From Sphingomonadales bacterium 39-57-19 (GTDB lineage: Bacteria; Pseudomonadota; Alphaproteobacteria; Sphingomonadales; Sphingomonadaceae), in the NCBI GenBank assembly GCA_002282385.1, contig NCJG01000002.1, positions 186,001-250,000 of the forward strand: a stretch of DNA of 64,000 bases, in the 5' to 3' direction. Below, piece after piece: positions 3,137 through 61,557 of this stretch (position 1 is the stretch's first letter; every line of letters starts with the position of its first letter). The notes beneath the pieces are model-generated. The model saw nothing but the letters and a program-made list of their open reading frames with translations. It searched no databases and had not been told where the DNA came from. Both the position numbers and the translations under genes were made by a program.

Positions 3137-5953
3137 ATGTCAGACCAAAAGCATCTCTATCTCGTCGATGGCTCCGCCTATATTTTCCGGGCCTATCACC
3201 GGCTGCCCCCGCTCACCAACAAACATGGCGAGCCGGTCGGTGCGGTATATGGCTATACGACCATGCTGTGGAAGCTGGCGGACGACCTCAATCAAGCGGA
3301 TGGTCCAACACATATGGCTGTTGTCCTCGATAAATCGAGCCAGTCATTCCGCAACCGTATCTACGACCAATATAAGGCGCACAGACCCGATCCGCCTGAG
3401 GATTTAAGACCACAATTCCCGATGATCCGGGATGCGACACGGGCATTCTCTTTGCCGTTGGTGGAAGAGGATGATGTCGAGGCCGATGACATGATCGCAA
3501 GCTATGCGCGCGCCGCTTGCGCCGCCGGCTGGCATGTAACCATCGTCAGCAGCGACAAGGACCTGATGCAGTTGGTGGAACCGTGCATCGACATGTTCGA
3601 CACGATGAAAAACGAACGCATTCGCGCCGAGGAAGTATACGAAAAATTTGGTGTTGAACCCGAACGCGTTGGCGATGTGCTGGCGCTGATGGGCGATAGC
3701 GTCGACAATGTGCCGGGTGTCCCCGGCGTCGGGCCAAAGACGGCGACGAAGCTTATTCAGGAATTTGGTGACCTCGAAAGCGTCTTGGCCGCTGCAGCTT
3801 CCATGAAGCCCTCCAAAATGCGCGATAATTTGATTGAGCATGCGGACAAGGCGCGTCTGTCAAAAGTGCTGGTGACTTTGAAAGAAGATTGCCCGCTGCC
3901 CATCGCGATTGAAGACATGGTGTTGGGGACAATCCCCGAAGAGCCGCTCGCCGCATTTTTGGAGCATCACGGGTTCAACTCGCTTTTGAAGCGTATCGGC
4001 CATGTCGCAAATACCGCTGCCGCCAATAAGGCGATTGCAGGCAACCCCAAGGCCGCAAGCAAGGGCGACGCCCCGATATCCGCGCCCACAGCGGGGGCAG
4101 CAGCTTTGCCGCCCGCCATGCCCAAAATTGATGTGTCGACATATGAATGCGTCACGGATGTCGCTCGGCTGGACCATTGGATTTCCCGCGCCCGTGAAAC
4201 AGGAACTTTGGGTTTCGACACCGAAACAGACAGCTTGCAAGCGGCGAGCGCCAATCTTGTGGGCTTCAGCCTGGCGGTCGCACCGGGGGAGGCATGTTAT
4301 GTCCCGTTGGCACATGGCGGCACCGATATGTTCGCGGAAAAGCCTGTTCAGATAGAAATGAACATAGCTTTGCAACGGTTGCGCCCGCTGCTCAGCGATC
4401 CCAGCGTGCTGAAAATTGGCCAAAATCTGAAATATGACATGTCGGTATTGGCGCGGCACGATGTGCACATAACGCCCTATGATGACACGATGGTCATGAG
4501 CTTTGCCTTGGATGCGGGTCGTCAACTGCATGGCATGGATGAACTCGCCAAAACGCATTTGGGGCATGAATGCATCTCTTATAAAAGCGTCACCGGAACG
4601 GGCAAAAGCCAGATTGGTTTTGCCGCCGTCCCGCTGTCGGACGCGACCTGCTATGCGGCGGAAGATGCCGATGTAACCCTGCGGTTGTGGCATCACCTAA
4701 AGTTACGGATGAGCCCTGAAAAGGCGACCAGCGTCTATGAACTGGTAGACCGCCCGCTCGTGCCCGTCCTGTCGCAGATGGAATGCTTAGGCATTAAAGT
4801 CGACCGGGCGGTGCTGGCGCGGTTATCATCCGAGTTCGCGGCGCAAATGGAACGGCTCGAAAAGGAAATTCATGGCCTCGCCGGACAGCCGTTTACGATC
4901 GGCAGCCCACAGCAGCTTGGCGAAATCCTGTTTGGAAAAATGGGATATAAGGGCGGTAAAAAGGGCAAGTCGGGGCAATATTCGACTGATGTAACCGTGC
5001 TGGAGGATCTGGCGGGGCAGGGCATCGATATCGCACGCAAGGTTCTCGATTGGCGGCAACTGGCGAAGCTGAAATCAACCTATACCGACAGCCTGCAACA
5101 GCAGATTGACCCGAAAACCGGCCGTGTGCACACAAGCTACAGCCTTGTTGGCGCGCAAACCGGGCGGCTGTCATCGACCGATCCGAACTTGCAGAATATC
5201 CCCATTCGTACCGAAACCGGTCGCCAGATCCGGGACGCTTTTGTCGCCGAACCCGGCAATGTGATCCTATCTGCCGACTATAGCCAAATCGAGCTGCGGC
5301 TTGCGGCGCATTTTGCGGATGTGGAACCCTTGCGCGATGCCTTTGAAAAGGGCGAAGACATTCATGCGCGCACGGCATTGGAACTGTTCGGCGAAGTAAA
5401 CCGCGACACGCGTGGCCGTGCCAAGACGATCAACTTTTCCATTCTATATGGCATTTCCCGATGGGGTCTTTCAAAGCGTTTGGAATCGACCGCCGACGAA
5501 GCGCAGGCGCTTATCGACGCCTATTTCCAACGTTTCCCAGGCATTTCGAATTATATTCAGGAAACCATGGCGACAGTCCGCGAATGCGGGCACTCGACGA
5601 CGTTGTTTGGCCGGAAAACATGGTTCCCACGCATATCGTCGCCCAATCAGGCAGAACGGCAGGGCAGTGAACGTGCTGCGATCAATGCGCCGATTCAGGG
5701 TACAAGCGCTGACATCATCAAACGCGCGATGGTGCAAATGGGGCCGGTGTTGAAAGCCGCTGGCTTAGGCCATGTGAAGATGCTGCTTCAGGTGCATGAC
5801 GAACTTGTGTTCGAACTGCCCGAGGCGGATGTCGCCGCGGCAAGCGACGTCATCCGCGCGATTATGGCAGGCGCGGCCGAACCTTTGGTAAAGCTCACAG
5901 TCCCGCTCGGTATCGAAATCGGGACGGGGCCAAGCTGGGGCGCCGCGCACTAA
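3137..5953 (+). CDS. polA: DNA polymerase I
   Basis: A 938-residue, three-domain polymerase I that fills gaps and removes primers in replication and excision repair. Residues 1 to about 300 form the 5'-3' exonuclease. A proofreading exonuclease follows: DTETDS, the KIGQNLKYD motif and the AAEDADVTLRLW motif are intact, so 3'-5' activity is expected. The polymerase domain shows motif A DYSQIELR (Asp714), motif B KTINFSILYG (Lys763) and motif C QVHDELVFE (His887-Asp888-Glu889), which match the E. coli positions closely. A low-complexity Ala/Pro linker at about 310-340 joins the first two domains. The ATG at 3137 starts the conserved segment; an in-frame ATG at 3107 adds ten unlikely residues. 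The end converges on the DUF2171 gene. Confidence 0.97.
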   Translation: MSDQKHLYLVDGSAYIFRAYHRLPPLTNKHGEPVGAVYGYTTMLWKLADDLNQADGPTHMAVVLDKSSQSFRNRIYDQYKAHRPDPPEDLRPQFPMIRDATRAFSLPLVEEDDVEADDMIASYARAACAAGWHVTIVSSDKDLMQLVEPCIDMFDTMKNERIRAEEVYEKFGVEPERVGDVLALMGDSVDNVPGVPGVGPKTATKLIQEFGDLESVLAAAASMKPSKMRDNLIEHADKARLSKVLVTLKEDCPLPIAIEDMVLGTIPEEPLAAFLEHHGFNSLLKRIGHVANTAAANKAIAGNPKAASKGDAPISAPTAGAAALPPAMPKIDVSTYECVTDVARLDHWISRARETGTLGFDTETDSLQAASANLVGFSLAVAPGEACYVPLAHGGTDMFAEKPVQIEMNIALQRLRPLLSDPSVLKIGQNLKYDMSVLARHDVHITPYDDTMVMSFALDAGRQLHGMDELAKTHLGHECISYKSVTGTGKSQIGFAAVPLSDATCYAAEDADVTLRLWHHLKLRMSPEKATSVYELVDRPLVPVLSQMECLGIKVDRAVLARLSSEFAAQMERLEKEIHGLAGQPFTIGSPQQLGEILFGKMGYKGGKKGKSGQYSTDVTVLEDLAGQGIDIARKVLDWRQLAKLKSTYTDSLQQQIDPKTGRVHTSYSLVGAQTGRLSSTDPNLQNIPIRTETGRQIRDAFVAEPGNVILSADYSQIELRLAAHFADVEPLRDAFEKGEDIHARTALELFGEVNRDTRGRAKTINFSILYGISRWGLSKRLESTADEAQALIDAYFQRFPGISNYIQETMATVRECGHSTTLFGRKTWFPRISSPNQAERQGSERAAINAPIQGTSADIIKRAMVQMGPVLKAAGLGHVKMLLQVHDELVFELPEADVAAASDVIRAIMAGAAEPLVKLTVPLGIEIGTGPSWGAAH

Positions 5954-55507: not shown

Positions 55508-58500
55508 TTATTCCGCTGCCTCGGCAAAGCCCTCGTCACCTTCGATCAAGTCATGTGCCTTCAGGTCAACATTCAGACCCAATGAGCGCATTTCCTTAAC
55601 CAGAACGTTGAAGCTTTCGGGGATACCGGCTTCAAAGCTGTCGTCACCCTTGACGATCGCTTCGTAAACCTTGGTACGCCCGATAACGTCATCGGATTTG
55701 ACCGTGAGCATTTCCTGCAAGGTATAGGCCGCGCCATATGCCTGAAGTGCCCAGCATTCCATTTCCCCGAAACGCTGACCACCGAATTGCGCCTTACCAC
55801 CAAGTGGCTGCTGCGTAACAAGGCTGTACGGTCCGATTGAACGGGCGTGGATCTTGTCATCAACAAGGTGATGCAATTTTAGCATGTAGATGATGCCTAC
55901 GGTCACCTTACGGTCGAACTTGTCACCGGTACGGCCGTCGAACAGATCGGATTGACCCGAACCGTCAAGTCCAGCGAGCTGGAGCATAGTGGTAACGTCC
56001 GCTTCACGTGCACCATCGAACACAGGTGTGCCCATTGGAACGCCGGTGACGACATTGCTTGCAAGTTCAATGATGTCCGCGTCGCTGCGGCCCTTGATCT
56101 CGTCGGCATAATCTTCGCCATAGGCTTTCGCCAAACGTTCGCGCACGATCGCTGGCGGCGTCGCGGCTTCGGGGTTCGGGTTATTGTGTCGCCACTCTTC
56201 CAAAGCCTCACCAATTTGCATGCCCAGACCGCGTGCGGCCCAACCAAGGTGGGTTTCGAAAATCTGCCCGACGTTCATACGCGATGGAACGCCCAACGGG
56301 TTAAGAACGATGTCGACAGGTGTACCATCGGCCAGGAACGGCATGTCTTCTTGCGGAAGGATCCGCGAGATAACACCCTTGTTTCCGTGACGTCCGGCCA
56401 TCTTGTCGCCTGGCTGCAGCTTACGCTTAACGGCAACGAATACCTTGACCATCTTGAGTACGCCAGGTGCGAGTTCATCACCGCGCTCCAGCTTCTCACG
56501 ACGATCTTCGAACTTCTCAACGATCAGCTTGACGGCATCATCATACTGAACCTTGACCGCTTCCAGATCGCCCTGGACCTTGTCATCGGCAACCGCGATT
56601 TTCCACCATTCGTGACGCTCAACTTCGCTGAGATTTTCCTCAGTGATCTTGTCGCCCTTCTTGATGCCCTTTGGCGCTGCGGCTGCAGTTTGACCAATGA
56701 GCATGTCTTTCAAGCGGTTGTACGTCGCACGGTTCAAAATCGAACGTTCGTCCTCGCGATCCTTCGCAAGACGTTCGATTTCTTCGCGTTCGATGGCCAT
56801 CGCACGCTCGTCCTTGTCGATGCCGTGGCGGTTAAACACGCGCACTTCAACAACAGTACCAGCGACACCAGGTGACAGACGCAACGATGTGTCGCGCACG
56901 TCGCTTGCCTTTTCACCAAAGATGGCGCGCAGCAGCTTTTCTTCTGGCGTCATGGGGCTTTCGCCCTTTGGCGTGATCTTGCCGACCAGAATGTCACCGG
57001 GGTGCACTTCTGCGCCGATGTACACGATGCCAGCTTCGTCGAGGCTGCGAAGCGCTTCTTCACCTACGTTTGGAATATCGCGGGTGATATCTTCAGGTCC
57101 AAGCTTTGTATCCCGGGCCATAACTTCGAATTCTTCGATATGGACCGATGTGAAGACATCGTCTTTCACGATGCGTTCGGAGATCAAGATCGAGTCTTCG
57201 TAGTTGTAACCGTTCCAAGGCATAAACGCTACGAGGCTGTTTTTGCCCAGTGCGAGTTCGCCCAGTTCGGTCGAAGGACCATCAGCGATGATGTCGCCGG
57301 CTTCGATGACGTCACCAACCTTCACCAATGGCTTTTGGTTGATGCAGGTGTTCTGGTTCGAACGCTGGAACTTTTGCAGCGTGTAGATGTCGACGCCCGA
57401 TTTGCCGGGTTCAACGTCGCCGGTCACGCGGACGACGATACGGGTCGCATCGACTTGGTCGACGATACCGGTACGGCGTGCAGCAATGGCAGCGCCGGAA
57501 TCGCGGGCAACGGTTTCTTCCATGCCGGTGCCGACAAACGGTGCTTCTGCGCGGAGCAAAGGCACGGCCTGACGTTGCATGTTCGAACCCATCAATGCGC
57601 GGTTGGCGTCATCGTTTTCCAGGAACGGGATGAGCGATGCTGCAACGGAAACCAGCTGCTTTGGCGAAACGTCCATCAACGTGATCTGGTCGCGCGGTGC
57701 CATCAGGAATTCGCCAGCTTCACGTGACGAAATCAGGTCTTCGGCAAAGCTGCCATCGGCGTTGAGTTCGGCGTTCGCCTGCGCGATGGTGTTCTTCTGC
57801 TCTTCCATGGCGGAGAGATAGACCACGTCGTCGGTGACTTTGTTGTCGATCACCTTGCGGTAAGGCGTTTCGATAAAGCCATATTTGTTCACGCGGCTGA
57901 ATGATGCCAGCGAGTTGATCAGACCGATGTTCGGGCCTTCTGGCGTTTCAATCGGGCAGATACGGCCATAGTGTGTTGGGTGAACGTCGCGGACTTCAAA
58001 GCCAGCGCGCTCACGCGTTAGACCACCTGGTCCAAGGGCCGAAACGCGGCGCTTGTGGGTGACTTCCGAAAGCGGGTTGGTCTGATCCATAAACTGCGAC
58101 AGCTGCGAGCTGCCGAAGAATTCGCGCACCGCAGCAACCGCTGGCTTTGCGTTGATCAGATCGTTTGGCATCACGGTGGATACGTCAACCGAGCTCATAC
58201 GTTCTTTCACGGCGCGCTCCATACGGAGCAGACCGACGCGATACTGGTTTTCCAGCAATTCGCCGACCGAACGGACACGACGGTTACCGAGGTTATCGAT
58301 ATCGTCGATTTCGCCCTTGCCGTCCTTCAGGTTCACCAGTTCCTTGACCACGGCGAGGATATCCTCTGTCCGCAAGGTGGTGAGCGTGTCTTCAACGTCA
58401 AGCTGCAGACGCATGTTCAACTTCACGCGGCCAACGGCGCTGAGGTCGTAGCGGTCTGGATCGAAGAATAGGCCAGCGAACAATGCTTCGGCGGTTTCGC

Positions 58501-59665
58501 GCGTTGGCGGCTCGCCAGGACGCATGACGCGGTAGATCGCATCAAGGCCCATGTCGCGGTTCTCGGCCTTGTCAGCCTTCAGCGTGTTGCGCATCCATGC
58601 GCCGGTGATGACATGGTCGATGTCGAGCAGCTCAAGGCTGTCGATGCCGGCCTTGTCGAGTGCTTCCAAGTTTTCAGCGGTGATTTCGTCACCAGCTTCA
58701 ACATAAATGCGGCCCGTTTTTTCGTCGATCAGGTCGAATGCCGAATAACGTCCAAAGATTTCTTCGGTCGGGATCAGCAGATGCGTCAGGCCATCCTTGA
58801 CCGCCTTGTTCGCGGCGCGTGGGGTAACCTTGGTGCCCGCAGGGAACACGACTTCGCCGGTCTTTGCATCCACGATGTCGAACATCGGTTTCGACGCACG
58901 CCATTGTTCCGCGTTGAACGGAATTTTCCAGCCACCGGTGCCACGTTCAAATGTCACGCGGTCGTAGAAGTGGCTGAGGATTTCTTCGTCGTTCAAACCC
59001 AGCGAGTAGAGCAAGGTCGTGACCGGCAACTTACGCTTACGGTCGATACGGACGTTGACGATATCCTTGGCATCAAATTCAAAGTCGAGCCACGAACCAC
59101 GGTACGGAATAACGCGCGCGGCGAAGAGATATTTGCCCGAAGAGTGCGTTTTACCGCGGTCATGGTCAAAAAGAACGCCCGGCGAACGGTGCATCTGCGA
59201 AACGATAACGCGCTCTGTACCGTTGACGAAGAAGGTGCCGTTATGCGTCATGAGCGGCATGTCGCCCATGTATACGTCCTGCTCCTTAATATCGAGGACC
59301 GAACGCGCTTCGGTGTCGGGGTCAACCTCAAACACGATGAGGCGCAATGTGACCTTCATCTGTGCGGCATAGGTAATTCCGCGCTGACGGCATTCTTCAA
59401 CGTCATATTTGGGATCTTCGAGTTCGTAATGGACGAAGTCGAGTTCCGACGTTCCGGCAAAATCCTTAATCGGGAAAACGCTGCGCAGCGTTTTTTCGAG
59501 GCCGGATACATAACCAATGGACGGGTCAGAGCGCAGGAACTGCTCATAGCTTTCGCGCTGAACCTCGATCAGGTTGGGCATGTCGATAACTTCGTGGATG
59601 TTACCGAAGATTTTGCGGATACGCTTTTGACGCGAGAGTGTCGCAGGAGCGGTTCGGGTTGCCAT
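55508..59665 (-). CDS. rpoB: RNA polymerase beta subunit
   Basis: About 1385 residues from the ATG at 59665, where the conserved [16 protein letters not shown] segment begins shortly after; a TTG at 59695 is also in frame. The rifampicin region carries [20 protein letters not shown] and [20 protein letters not shown], with Asp, His and Ser at the positions most often mutated in resistant strains, so a susceptible target is expected. Late conserved segments ([20 protein letters not shown] and [20 protein letters not shown]) are intact. It has its own promoter and is not preceded by rplJ-rplL in this window. Confidence 0.98.
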
Positions 59666-59892: not shown

Positions 59893-60142
59893 CCCCGGCC
59901 TGCGCCCATCACAAGCAATTTCGCGGCGGCGCAGCACCCGCAAGAGGGCCGGATTTGGCCCTTAAGGATACAAAAGGCACCAGCGGCGATGAAATGATTG
60001 TCCCCTTTGTCGCTTTAACGATTGAGGCGGCTGTTGTGCGAACCCCGATCAGCCAGAGGGGCAGTTACCGATGACCGCGCCGATGATCGCAGGGCAAATC
60101 CTACATTTCAAGGGGGGGTGGTGGCGGAATGAGGCGAGCATT

Positions 60143-60297
60143 TCATCCTGAACGTGCCAGTCACCGGCGCCCGTCACCCTTCATTCGTCACCCTGAACTT
60201 GTTTCAGGGTCTTACTTTCGACGCCGAGGATAAGAATTAAGATCCTGAAACAAGTTCAGGATGACGGACGGGGGCGGTCAAACAAGTTCAGGATGAC
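60143..60297. repeat. Array of 'gtcatcctgaacttgtttcagg' type palindromic repeats
   Basis: Bases 60187-60214 and 60238-60265 are inverted copies of a 28-base unit, matching at 26 of 28 positions, separated by 23 bases. A third, truncated copy lies at 60280-60297, and an eleven-base piece (TCATCCTGAAC) at 60143-60153. The unit is a dispersed intergenic repeat of the kind common in sphingomonads. The first two copies could form a very stable hairpin in RNA and terminate or insulate transcription between rpoB and the HNH gene. Confidence 0.75.
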
Positions 60298-60394
60298 ATG
60301 GCCAACATACGATAGAATAGTTGCCGTTTACTTCGGCTAACGATACGTCTTGTGCACGCGCGAAACTCGCGCATCGATGGATAGGACCTGAACT

Positions 60395-61300
60395 TTGGCT
60401 AAAGGCGTATTTCTGCACCGCGCGGACTCCATTTACGATGATCGACCAGAAGAACGGTATCAATTCCCAAGCCAGTATCTCTCCAGAGCAAGTCAATTTG
60501 TTGGGGACTGGGTCGTTTACTATGAACCGGTCAAGGCTGGAAAAAAGGGCTATTTCGCCATTGCAAGGGTCGAGGAAATCGTTCCAGACCCGACCATTGC
60601 AAATATGTATCTCGCTCTAATTGAGCCCGGTTCATACTTGCCGATGGAGTATACCGTTCCGTTCAATGATCATGATGGTTTAGTTGAGCGCGGTCTACTC
60701 AACGAATCTGGCAAGATTTCCGGTAGGGCTCAAGCCGCGGTCCGGCCAATCTCCCTAGAAGACTTTAATCGTATTTTGGAACGCGGAATTCCGGATGTGG
60801 ACGATATGCTGCCAAGGACAGACGCATCCGAGCCAAAGGTCGTCGAAAGCCATTTCAGTGAAACAGTAGAGCCATTCATCTTTGACCAAGAGCGGGAACG
60901 CATAAGTTCGATCAGCAACCGCCTTGTTCGTGATCGGGTCTTCCGAAAAATTGTGCTTGATGCGTATGATTGCCGATGCGCGATTACCGGATTTAAGTTC
61001 ATCAACGGTGGCGGGCGTGCCGAAGTTGAGGCCGCCCATATCAAACCCGTCGAAGCAAACGGTCCCGACATCGTCGCTAATGGCATCGCGCTCTCGGGAA
61101 CGGTTCACTGGATGTTCGACCGAGGTCTGGTTAGCTTATCGGATAATCTGGATATCCTCGTTTCAAGGCAGGTGAACGACTCGGATCGTATTTGGAGCTT
61201 AGTCAATCCAAGCCGCAAGGCGGAATTGCCACGCCATCCAACACTGCGACCCCACCCAAGATTTTTGGAGTGGCATCGGCAGAATTGTTTTAAATGCTGA
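60395..61300 (+). CDS. HNH endonuclease with a possible PUA/EVE-like N-terminal domain
   Basis: A 301-residue protein. The C-terminal part (about 180-260) is an HNH_2-type nuclease: CAITG at 195-199, the first catalytic His215 in EAAHIKPVE, Asn229 in VANGIALS, and His238 in TVHWMFDRG. The N-terminal 120 residues (DWVVYYEPVKAGKKGYFAIA and an IVPDPTIANMYLALIEPGSY strand set) resemble, loosely, PUA/EVE-type beta-barrels that read modified bases; that is an inference. The start is a TTG with AGGA upstream. Composition is visibly more AT-rich than the flanking genes. It stands alone with no methyltransferase beside it, which would fit a modification-dependent restriction enzyme. Confidence 0.8.
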   Translation: MAKGVFLHRADSIYDDRPEERYQFPSQYLSRASQFVGDWVVYYEPVKAGKKGYFAIARVEEIVPDPTIANMYLALIEPGSYLPMEYTVPFNDHDGLVERGLLNESGKISGRAQAAVRPISLEDFNRILERGIPDVDDMLPRTDASEPKVVESHFSETVEPFIFDQERERISSISNRLVRDRVFRKIVLDAYDCRCAITGFKFINGGGRAEVEAAHIKPVEANGPDIVANGIALSGTVHWMFDRGLVSLSDNLDILVSRQVNDSDRIWSLVNPSRKAELPRHPTLRPHPRFLEWHRQNCFKC

Positions 61301-61304
61301 TGTT

Positions 61305-61326
61305 CAGCGGCGCCGTTGCGCCGCTG
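61305..61326 (+). terminator. Hairpin after the HNH gene
   Basis: CAGCGGCGC (61305-61313) pairs perfectly with GCGCCGCTG (61318-61326) around CGTT, five bases after the HNH stop. There is no U-tract. The remaining 230 bases before lepA contain no gene that I can support. Confidence 0.5.
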
Positions 61327-61557
61327 GCACCAATCACATTTTACGACCAGATGCAGGAGTGAATTTGATGGCTATGACATCTCGCTTTTTTTATCGAGTG
61401 TGTTGCTAAATCGCTGTGAAACCTGCTTGTCCGACACGAGCCAGCTAAAAAACCACTTTCCCACACACGCCCCCATCCATTATCCCGATTCACCTAGCGT
61501 GATACAGGCGTTCCGCCATGCTTGAAGGGGCGGGGCAGCCCTGCTAGGGGCGGCTGC

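Follow-up and report, generated by a model that had tools for sequence, protein, structure and literature searches.

The window, a stretch of 64,000 nucleotides from contig NCJG01000002.1 of Sphingomonadales bacterium 39-57-19, contains near its right end a gene of 301 codons, located between rpoB and lepA, whose product combines a predicted EVE-like N-terminal domain with a C-terminal HNH nuclease domain. The features of this locus are as follows.

55508..59665, minus strand: rpoB, conserved gene flanking the insertion spot
60005..61502, no strand: accessory insert, opposite about 140 unrelated bases in G023, the closest relative with an empty site
60186..60297, no strand: dispersed inverted repeats of the CCTGAAC-TTCAGG type, upstream of the EVE-HNH gene
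60383..60386, plus strand: AGGA, a ribosome-binding-like sequence 8 nt before the TTG (sequence reading)
60395..61300, plus strand: EVE-HNH gene, 301 aa, TTG start (ORF and Pfam)
60395..60787, plus strand: predicted EVE/PUA-like N-terminal sensor domain, residues 1-131 (AlphaFold2 and Foldseek)
60809..60910, plus strand: low-confidence inter-domain linker, residues ~139-172, pLDDT < 50 (predicted model)
60920..61297, plus strand: C-terminal HNH (beta-beta-alpha-metal) nuclease domain, residues 176-301 (Pfam HNH_2 and alignment to the VcaM4I HNH domain)
61037..61039, plus strand: codon of His215, putative general base, equivalent to VcaM4I H224 (alignment; PMC7897488)
61106..61120, plus strand: His238 to Asp242, putative metal ligands, equivalent to VcaM4I D250 and D254 (alignment; PMC7897488)
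61558..63375, plus strand: lepA, conserved gene flanking the insertion spot

The TTG at 60395, which the original prediction had already taken as the start, is the sole possible one, being forced by an in-frame TGA at 60389 with no start codon between the two. Residue 1 of the 301-aa protein is aligned with the starts of its homologues, several of which also begin with TTG or GTG. Because 80 full-length homologues (~55-98% identity, with alphaproteobacterial or unresolved proteobacterial titles) were recovered in one scan, the frame at 60395-61300 is real and far above chance. As had been claimed, the gene is more AT-rich than its neighbours: with a GC content of 50.7%, compared with 55.8% for the whole window, it falls in the lowest 1.1% of 906-bp windows, and its GC3 is also low for the region. 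The repeats said to lie beside the gene between housekeeping loci were located at 60186-60297, and their core, CTGAAACAAGTTCAGGATGAC, has 18 exact copies genome-wide; the flanking loci are rpoB (minus strand) and lepA (plus strand).

The C-terminal half matched Pfam HNH_2 over its cut-off (E = 9e-10). His215, Asn229 and His238 occupy exactly the positions given in the original prediction and, together with Asp242, are invariant in all 57 homologues compared. In the alignment with VcaM4I, an EVE-HNH enzyme of Vibrio campbellii (PDB 6yex), H215 corresponds to H224, N229 to N241, H238 to D250 and D242 to D254, and mutagenesis has shown that H224, D250 and D254 matter in VcaM4I (PMC7897488). The two proteins share the catalytic pattern H-N-(D/H)-D, although the third motif residue is Asp in VcaM4I and His in the window protein, and in both a small residue precedes the first motif His (an invariant Ala in the window family, Ser in VcaM4I), on which grounds D242 is likely to be a substitute metal ligand.

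Among curated family models, the closest HNH half was found in NCBIfam PT-DNA_restrict (NF045808; E = 8e-32), which represents the phosphorothioate-dependent EcoWI/SprMcrA (SBD-HNH) enzymes, and the conserved His-Arg and Tyr/Pro of the N-terminal domain recall the HR and YP signature of the SBD (PMC7461809). However, the match scored 110, below the cut-off of 180, and covered the profile only from position 132 to 284, the SBD half being absent. In addition, the SBD is built of nine helices (PMC7470945), whereas the window protein is modelled as a beta barrel that matches EVE structures, so that the likeness to these enzymes lies in the HNH half and not in the sensor fold. Phosphorothioate sensing by an SBD was rejected on account of the fold and the partial NF045808 match (PMC7470945), and we consider membership of this family very unlikely.

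The sensor domain was modelled with AlphaFold2 (residues 1-136, 56-sequence input) at a pLDDT of 91.8 and a pTM of 0.85. When this N-terminal domain was searched with Foldseek, the EVE protein 2gbs ranked first (E = 5e-4, TM 0.60) and the EVE proteins 1zce (TM 0.62) and PH1033 (TM 0.59) were near the top, while McrB N-domains, DrmA, YTH and ASCH were also among the matches. Lon N-domains, a related barrel, gave a good E-value but a lower TM, and the first SRA structure (SUVH5) appeared as a weak match at rank 44 (E = 0.27). The original prediction had called the N-terminus PUA/EVE-like and had named EVE, ASCH and SRA as the folds for comparison; the confident model, with EVE proteins leading, ASCH also present and SRA weak, agrees with it, and the predicted fold places the domain with EVE in the PUA superfamily. 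For the full chain, the best structural match was VcaM4I (E = 9e-11), followed by TagI, with TM scores that are low because the linker and the domain arrangement are not reliably predicted. TagI (SRA-HNH, PDB 6ghs) resembles the window protein in joining a PUA-superfamily sensor to an HNH nuclease (E = 0.013 for the HNH half), but its sensor is of the SRA type, only weakly matched by the window N-domain; an SRA sensor was rejected on the ranking of SUVH5. The canonical EVE proteins (Rpa0253, 2gbs; Atu2648, 1zce; PH1033) match the fold of residues 1-131, and the GD-strand, the DPT turn and the final strand-helix align, although these proteins stand alone, without a nuclease.

At the sequence level the relationship is more distant. 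Pfam EVE was matched below threshold (E = 0.11 for the window protein; the best-scoring of 57 members reached 0.005), and in hhalign the window family was aligned to the canonical EVEs of the same bacteria with E = 0.0033 and a probability of only ~10%. The crystallographically proven EVE of VcaM4I gave E = 0.0065 against the same canonical EVEs, and by this measure both are remote EVEs, similarly close to the canonical ones. A direct profile comparison of the window N-domain with the VcaM4I EVE detected no similarity, so the two are linked by structure only and the window family forms a separate EVE-HNH lineage; the HNH domains are ~25% identical. The architecture itself, an EVE-like N-domain and a C-terminal HNH domain in about 300 aa, is already known, and the window family is a distinct branch of it. 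Bell et al. (PMC7641849) had predicted such fusions, and TspA15I and CmeDI, likened here by description (PMC7897488), are modification-dependent restriction enzymes (MDREs) of the same architecture. The earlier statement that such fusions act as enzymes of this kind holds for VcaM4I, the best full-chain structural match, and no experimental study of the window's own branch was found in the literature searched.

Based on a weak hhalign register and motif reading, residues of the putative base pocket were mapped to the VcaM4I positions P24, W82, Y130 and Q128. In this weak profile alignment, Q113 (55 of 57 homologues) falls on the wedge residue Q128 and P25 (57 of 57) on P24, so that VcaM4I and the window protein would share the wedge Gln and the pocket Pro. 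Y72 (Tyr or Phe in 54 of 57) falls on W82, a position held by Tyr82 in the Pseudomonas syringae EVE, and A115 (56 of 57) falls on Y130, where the canonical EVEs of the same bacteria have Ser. In VcaM4I, Y130A was the sole single alanine exchange that clearly impaired the enzyme in all three first-round assays (PMC7897488). Plausibly, then, the base-flipping parts are kept in the window family and one pocket wall is altered (Ala115 instead of Tyr130); the specificity may not equal that of VcaM4I.

The gene is accessory, and is neither universal nor vertically fixed in the order. It was matched in 14 of 100 relatives, and close full-length copies occur in ~60 of 399 Sphingomonadales genomes (~15%), with fragments in others. 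Among 397 Pseudomonadota, the N-domain was found in 30, only one of which lies outside the window's class, and nearly all of these matches lie in frames of ~300-350 aa, as long as the fused protein. Copies are carried on megaplasmids of Rhizobium, Sinorhizobium and Agrobacterium, homologues are also present in IMG/VR contigs, and in the gene tree sequences from different bacterial orders are in part intermingled. The presence/absence comparison proposed in the original prediction therefore gave a patchy pattern, and the universal, vertical inheritance that would have spoken against a defence gene was not seen, given the empty sites, the plasmid and prophage copies and the interleaved tree. In one locus (L238, 512-5909), a homologue directly follows genes for a provirus tail and an internal virion protein. 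Broken copies exist in G014, G226 and G395, as would be expected of a decayed or regulatory gene lacking nuclease function, but the window copy is unbroken and retains every catalytic residue, and the G013 copy is full-length and 98% identical, which makes this reading scarcely credible.

The position of the insert gives further information. The rpoB-lepA gap is empty (0.4-0.6 kb) in 11 members of the genus, and it holds the EVE-HNH gene in the source genome, G013 and G014. The same gap contains a 1086-aa LlaBIII/LlaGI-like type ISP enzyme in G024 and an HhaI-like C5-methyltransferase with a 334-aa partner (no PDB match for the partner) in G019. Its occupant in G042 and G039 is an HNH protein with an EcoKMcrA-like nuclease half, the frame being shorter in G039; in G042 there is also a 201-aa partner, which over 61 residues matches leucine-rich-repeat chains. 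Longer inserts, which share genes with one another, are found in G018, G021 and G031. Restriction-type genes filling the gap lie at the following positions.

L242, 14972-15907
L244, 12701-15961
L245, 806-3252

This comparison marks the rpoB-lepA gap as a small hotspot of restriction genes in the genus, newly recognized here. The alternation of restriction-type genes at this position speaks strongly, on contextual grounds, for a role of the EVE-HNH gene in restriction. Because relatives use this chromosomal spot for different restriction systems, the gene almost certainly belongs to a known general type of small, mobile genes that defend against phages. The flanks of lepA look like a recurrent insertion spot: lepA is within 5 kb of homologues in six other named loci (p ~1e-7 under a random-position model, although shared ancestry of position is possible). 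In distant genomes, lepA lies within 5 kb of homologues in L007, L028, L033, L055, L056, L073, L143, L166 and L168, and these homologues are mostly at its 3' end.

The absence of a neighbouring methyltransferase, stated in the original prediction, was confirmed by inspection of the ORFs listed for the final 10 kb of the window. When the ORFs lying up to 5 kb from each of the 80 homologues were searched with two C5-methyltransferases, no match was found, and PF00145 (C5-methyltransferase) had no match in the source genome, where the only methyltransferases are N6/N4 enzymes on other contigs (C1 and C12). In a simple tally, at least one type I methyltransferase was present among 227 neighbours. 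The gene is an orphan without a C5-methyltransferase partner, which bears on whether it could be a conventional type II enzyme, with an EVE-like domain reading unmodified sequence and with its C5-methyltransferase lost or replaced by a protecting host methyltransferase. A sister lineage (~35-40% identity) does stand beside a C5-methyltransferase in two loci: in L171 the HNH gene (4517-5461) is in tandem, on the same strand, with the methyltransferase gene (3343-4383), and in L172 (4696-7659) it accompanies Vsr and a C5-methyltransferase. These neighbours keep the type II explanation alive for the sister lineage. Of 60 close carriers among the 399 Sphingomonadales, 26 also encode a C5-methyltransferase and 34 do not, against 188 of 339 other genomes that do (odds ratio 0.61, p = 0.09, uncorrected for phylogeny); this is a weak trend, and strict incompatibility with 5mC was not seen. 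However, a cutter without its methyltransferase would be lethal, the gene moves between genomes as a single ORF, and no C5-methyltransferase was found near the close homologues or in the window's own genome, so a type II enzyme at this locus is quite unlikely.

In seven sphingomonad-type loci (L011, L012, L014, L015, L020, L021 and L032), hipB-hipA genes adjoin the HNH gene, hipA overlapping its start by 4 nt or directly preceding it, and on two Agrobacterium plasmids hipBA adjoins a homologue, in either gene order (L131, 4340-6912; L136, 776-3216). The 444-aa upstream gene, considered as a methyltransferase, proved to be HipA. These pairings, and the ability of EVE domains to bind modified RNA, could suggest that the protein acts on modified RNA or serves a HipBA module as its cargo effector, instead of restricting DNA. 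Most homologues, including the window gene, nevertheless have no hipBA, the HNH domain is that of DNA-cutting MDRE families, and the rpoB-lepA spot otherwise holds DNA restriction genes; a role of this sort is highly improbable.

Taken together, we judge it probable that the gene encodes a complete single-gene type IV restriction enzyme, which would flip a modified base into its EVE pocket and cut with its HNH domain. By analogy with VcaM4I, the EVE-like domain would scan DNA, wedge Q113 into the base stack and flip the modified base into a pocket whose walls include P25 and the aromatic residue Y72; this base is most likely a cytosine modified at C5, for example 5mC or 5hmC. Base binding would then relieve autoinhibition by freeing the linker-held HNH domain, which, probably as a dimer, would cut the DNA nearby with H215 as base and H238 and D242 as metal ligands; host DNA would be spared because the mark is absent. 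A bolder reading is that this lineage, with Ala in the pocket where VcaM4I needs Tyr130, recognizes a different, perhaps bulkier modification than VcaM4I, and that some of its members have the nuclease coupled to a HipBA kinase module. This is rather doubtful, but if true, restriction of modified phage DNA and HipBA growth arrest would form one defence unit. In any case the conserved Ala makes base specificity a clear question. A 'hypothetical HNH' protein that is common among Alphaproteobacteria, also on symbiosis and Agrobacterium megaplasmids, becomes a concrete candidate restriction enzyme for modified DNA, which could limit transformation with dcm-methylated DNA, and the rpoB-lepA hotspot is a place to seek further systems.

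Genes of the window family and of the VcaM4I family occur within ~10 kb of each other in Agrobacterium F2 (L136, 2410-10945) and S. medicae (L135, 2454-12357). The presence of both families on these two plasmids suggests that they have different targets. A very large helicase gene is also near the paired families on both rhizobial plasmids. The sister EVE-HNH lineage (~40% identity) lies, in many genomes, directly behind a TrwC/TraI relaxase gene and is a conserved cargo of conjugative elements.

L177-L179, L181, L182 and L186-L190: sister lineage with a TrwC/TraI-type ORF of ~970-1020 aa (Pfam basis from L177 only)

A convergent gene for a 211-aa S24/LexA-like protein accompanies this pair.
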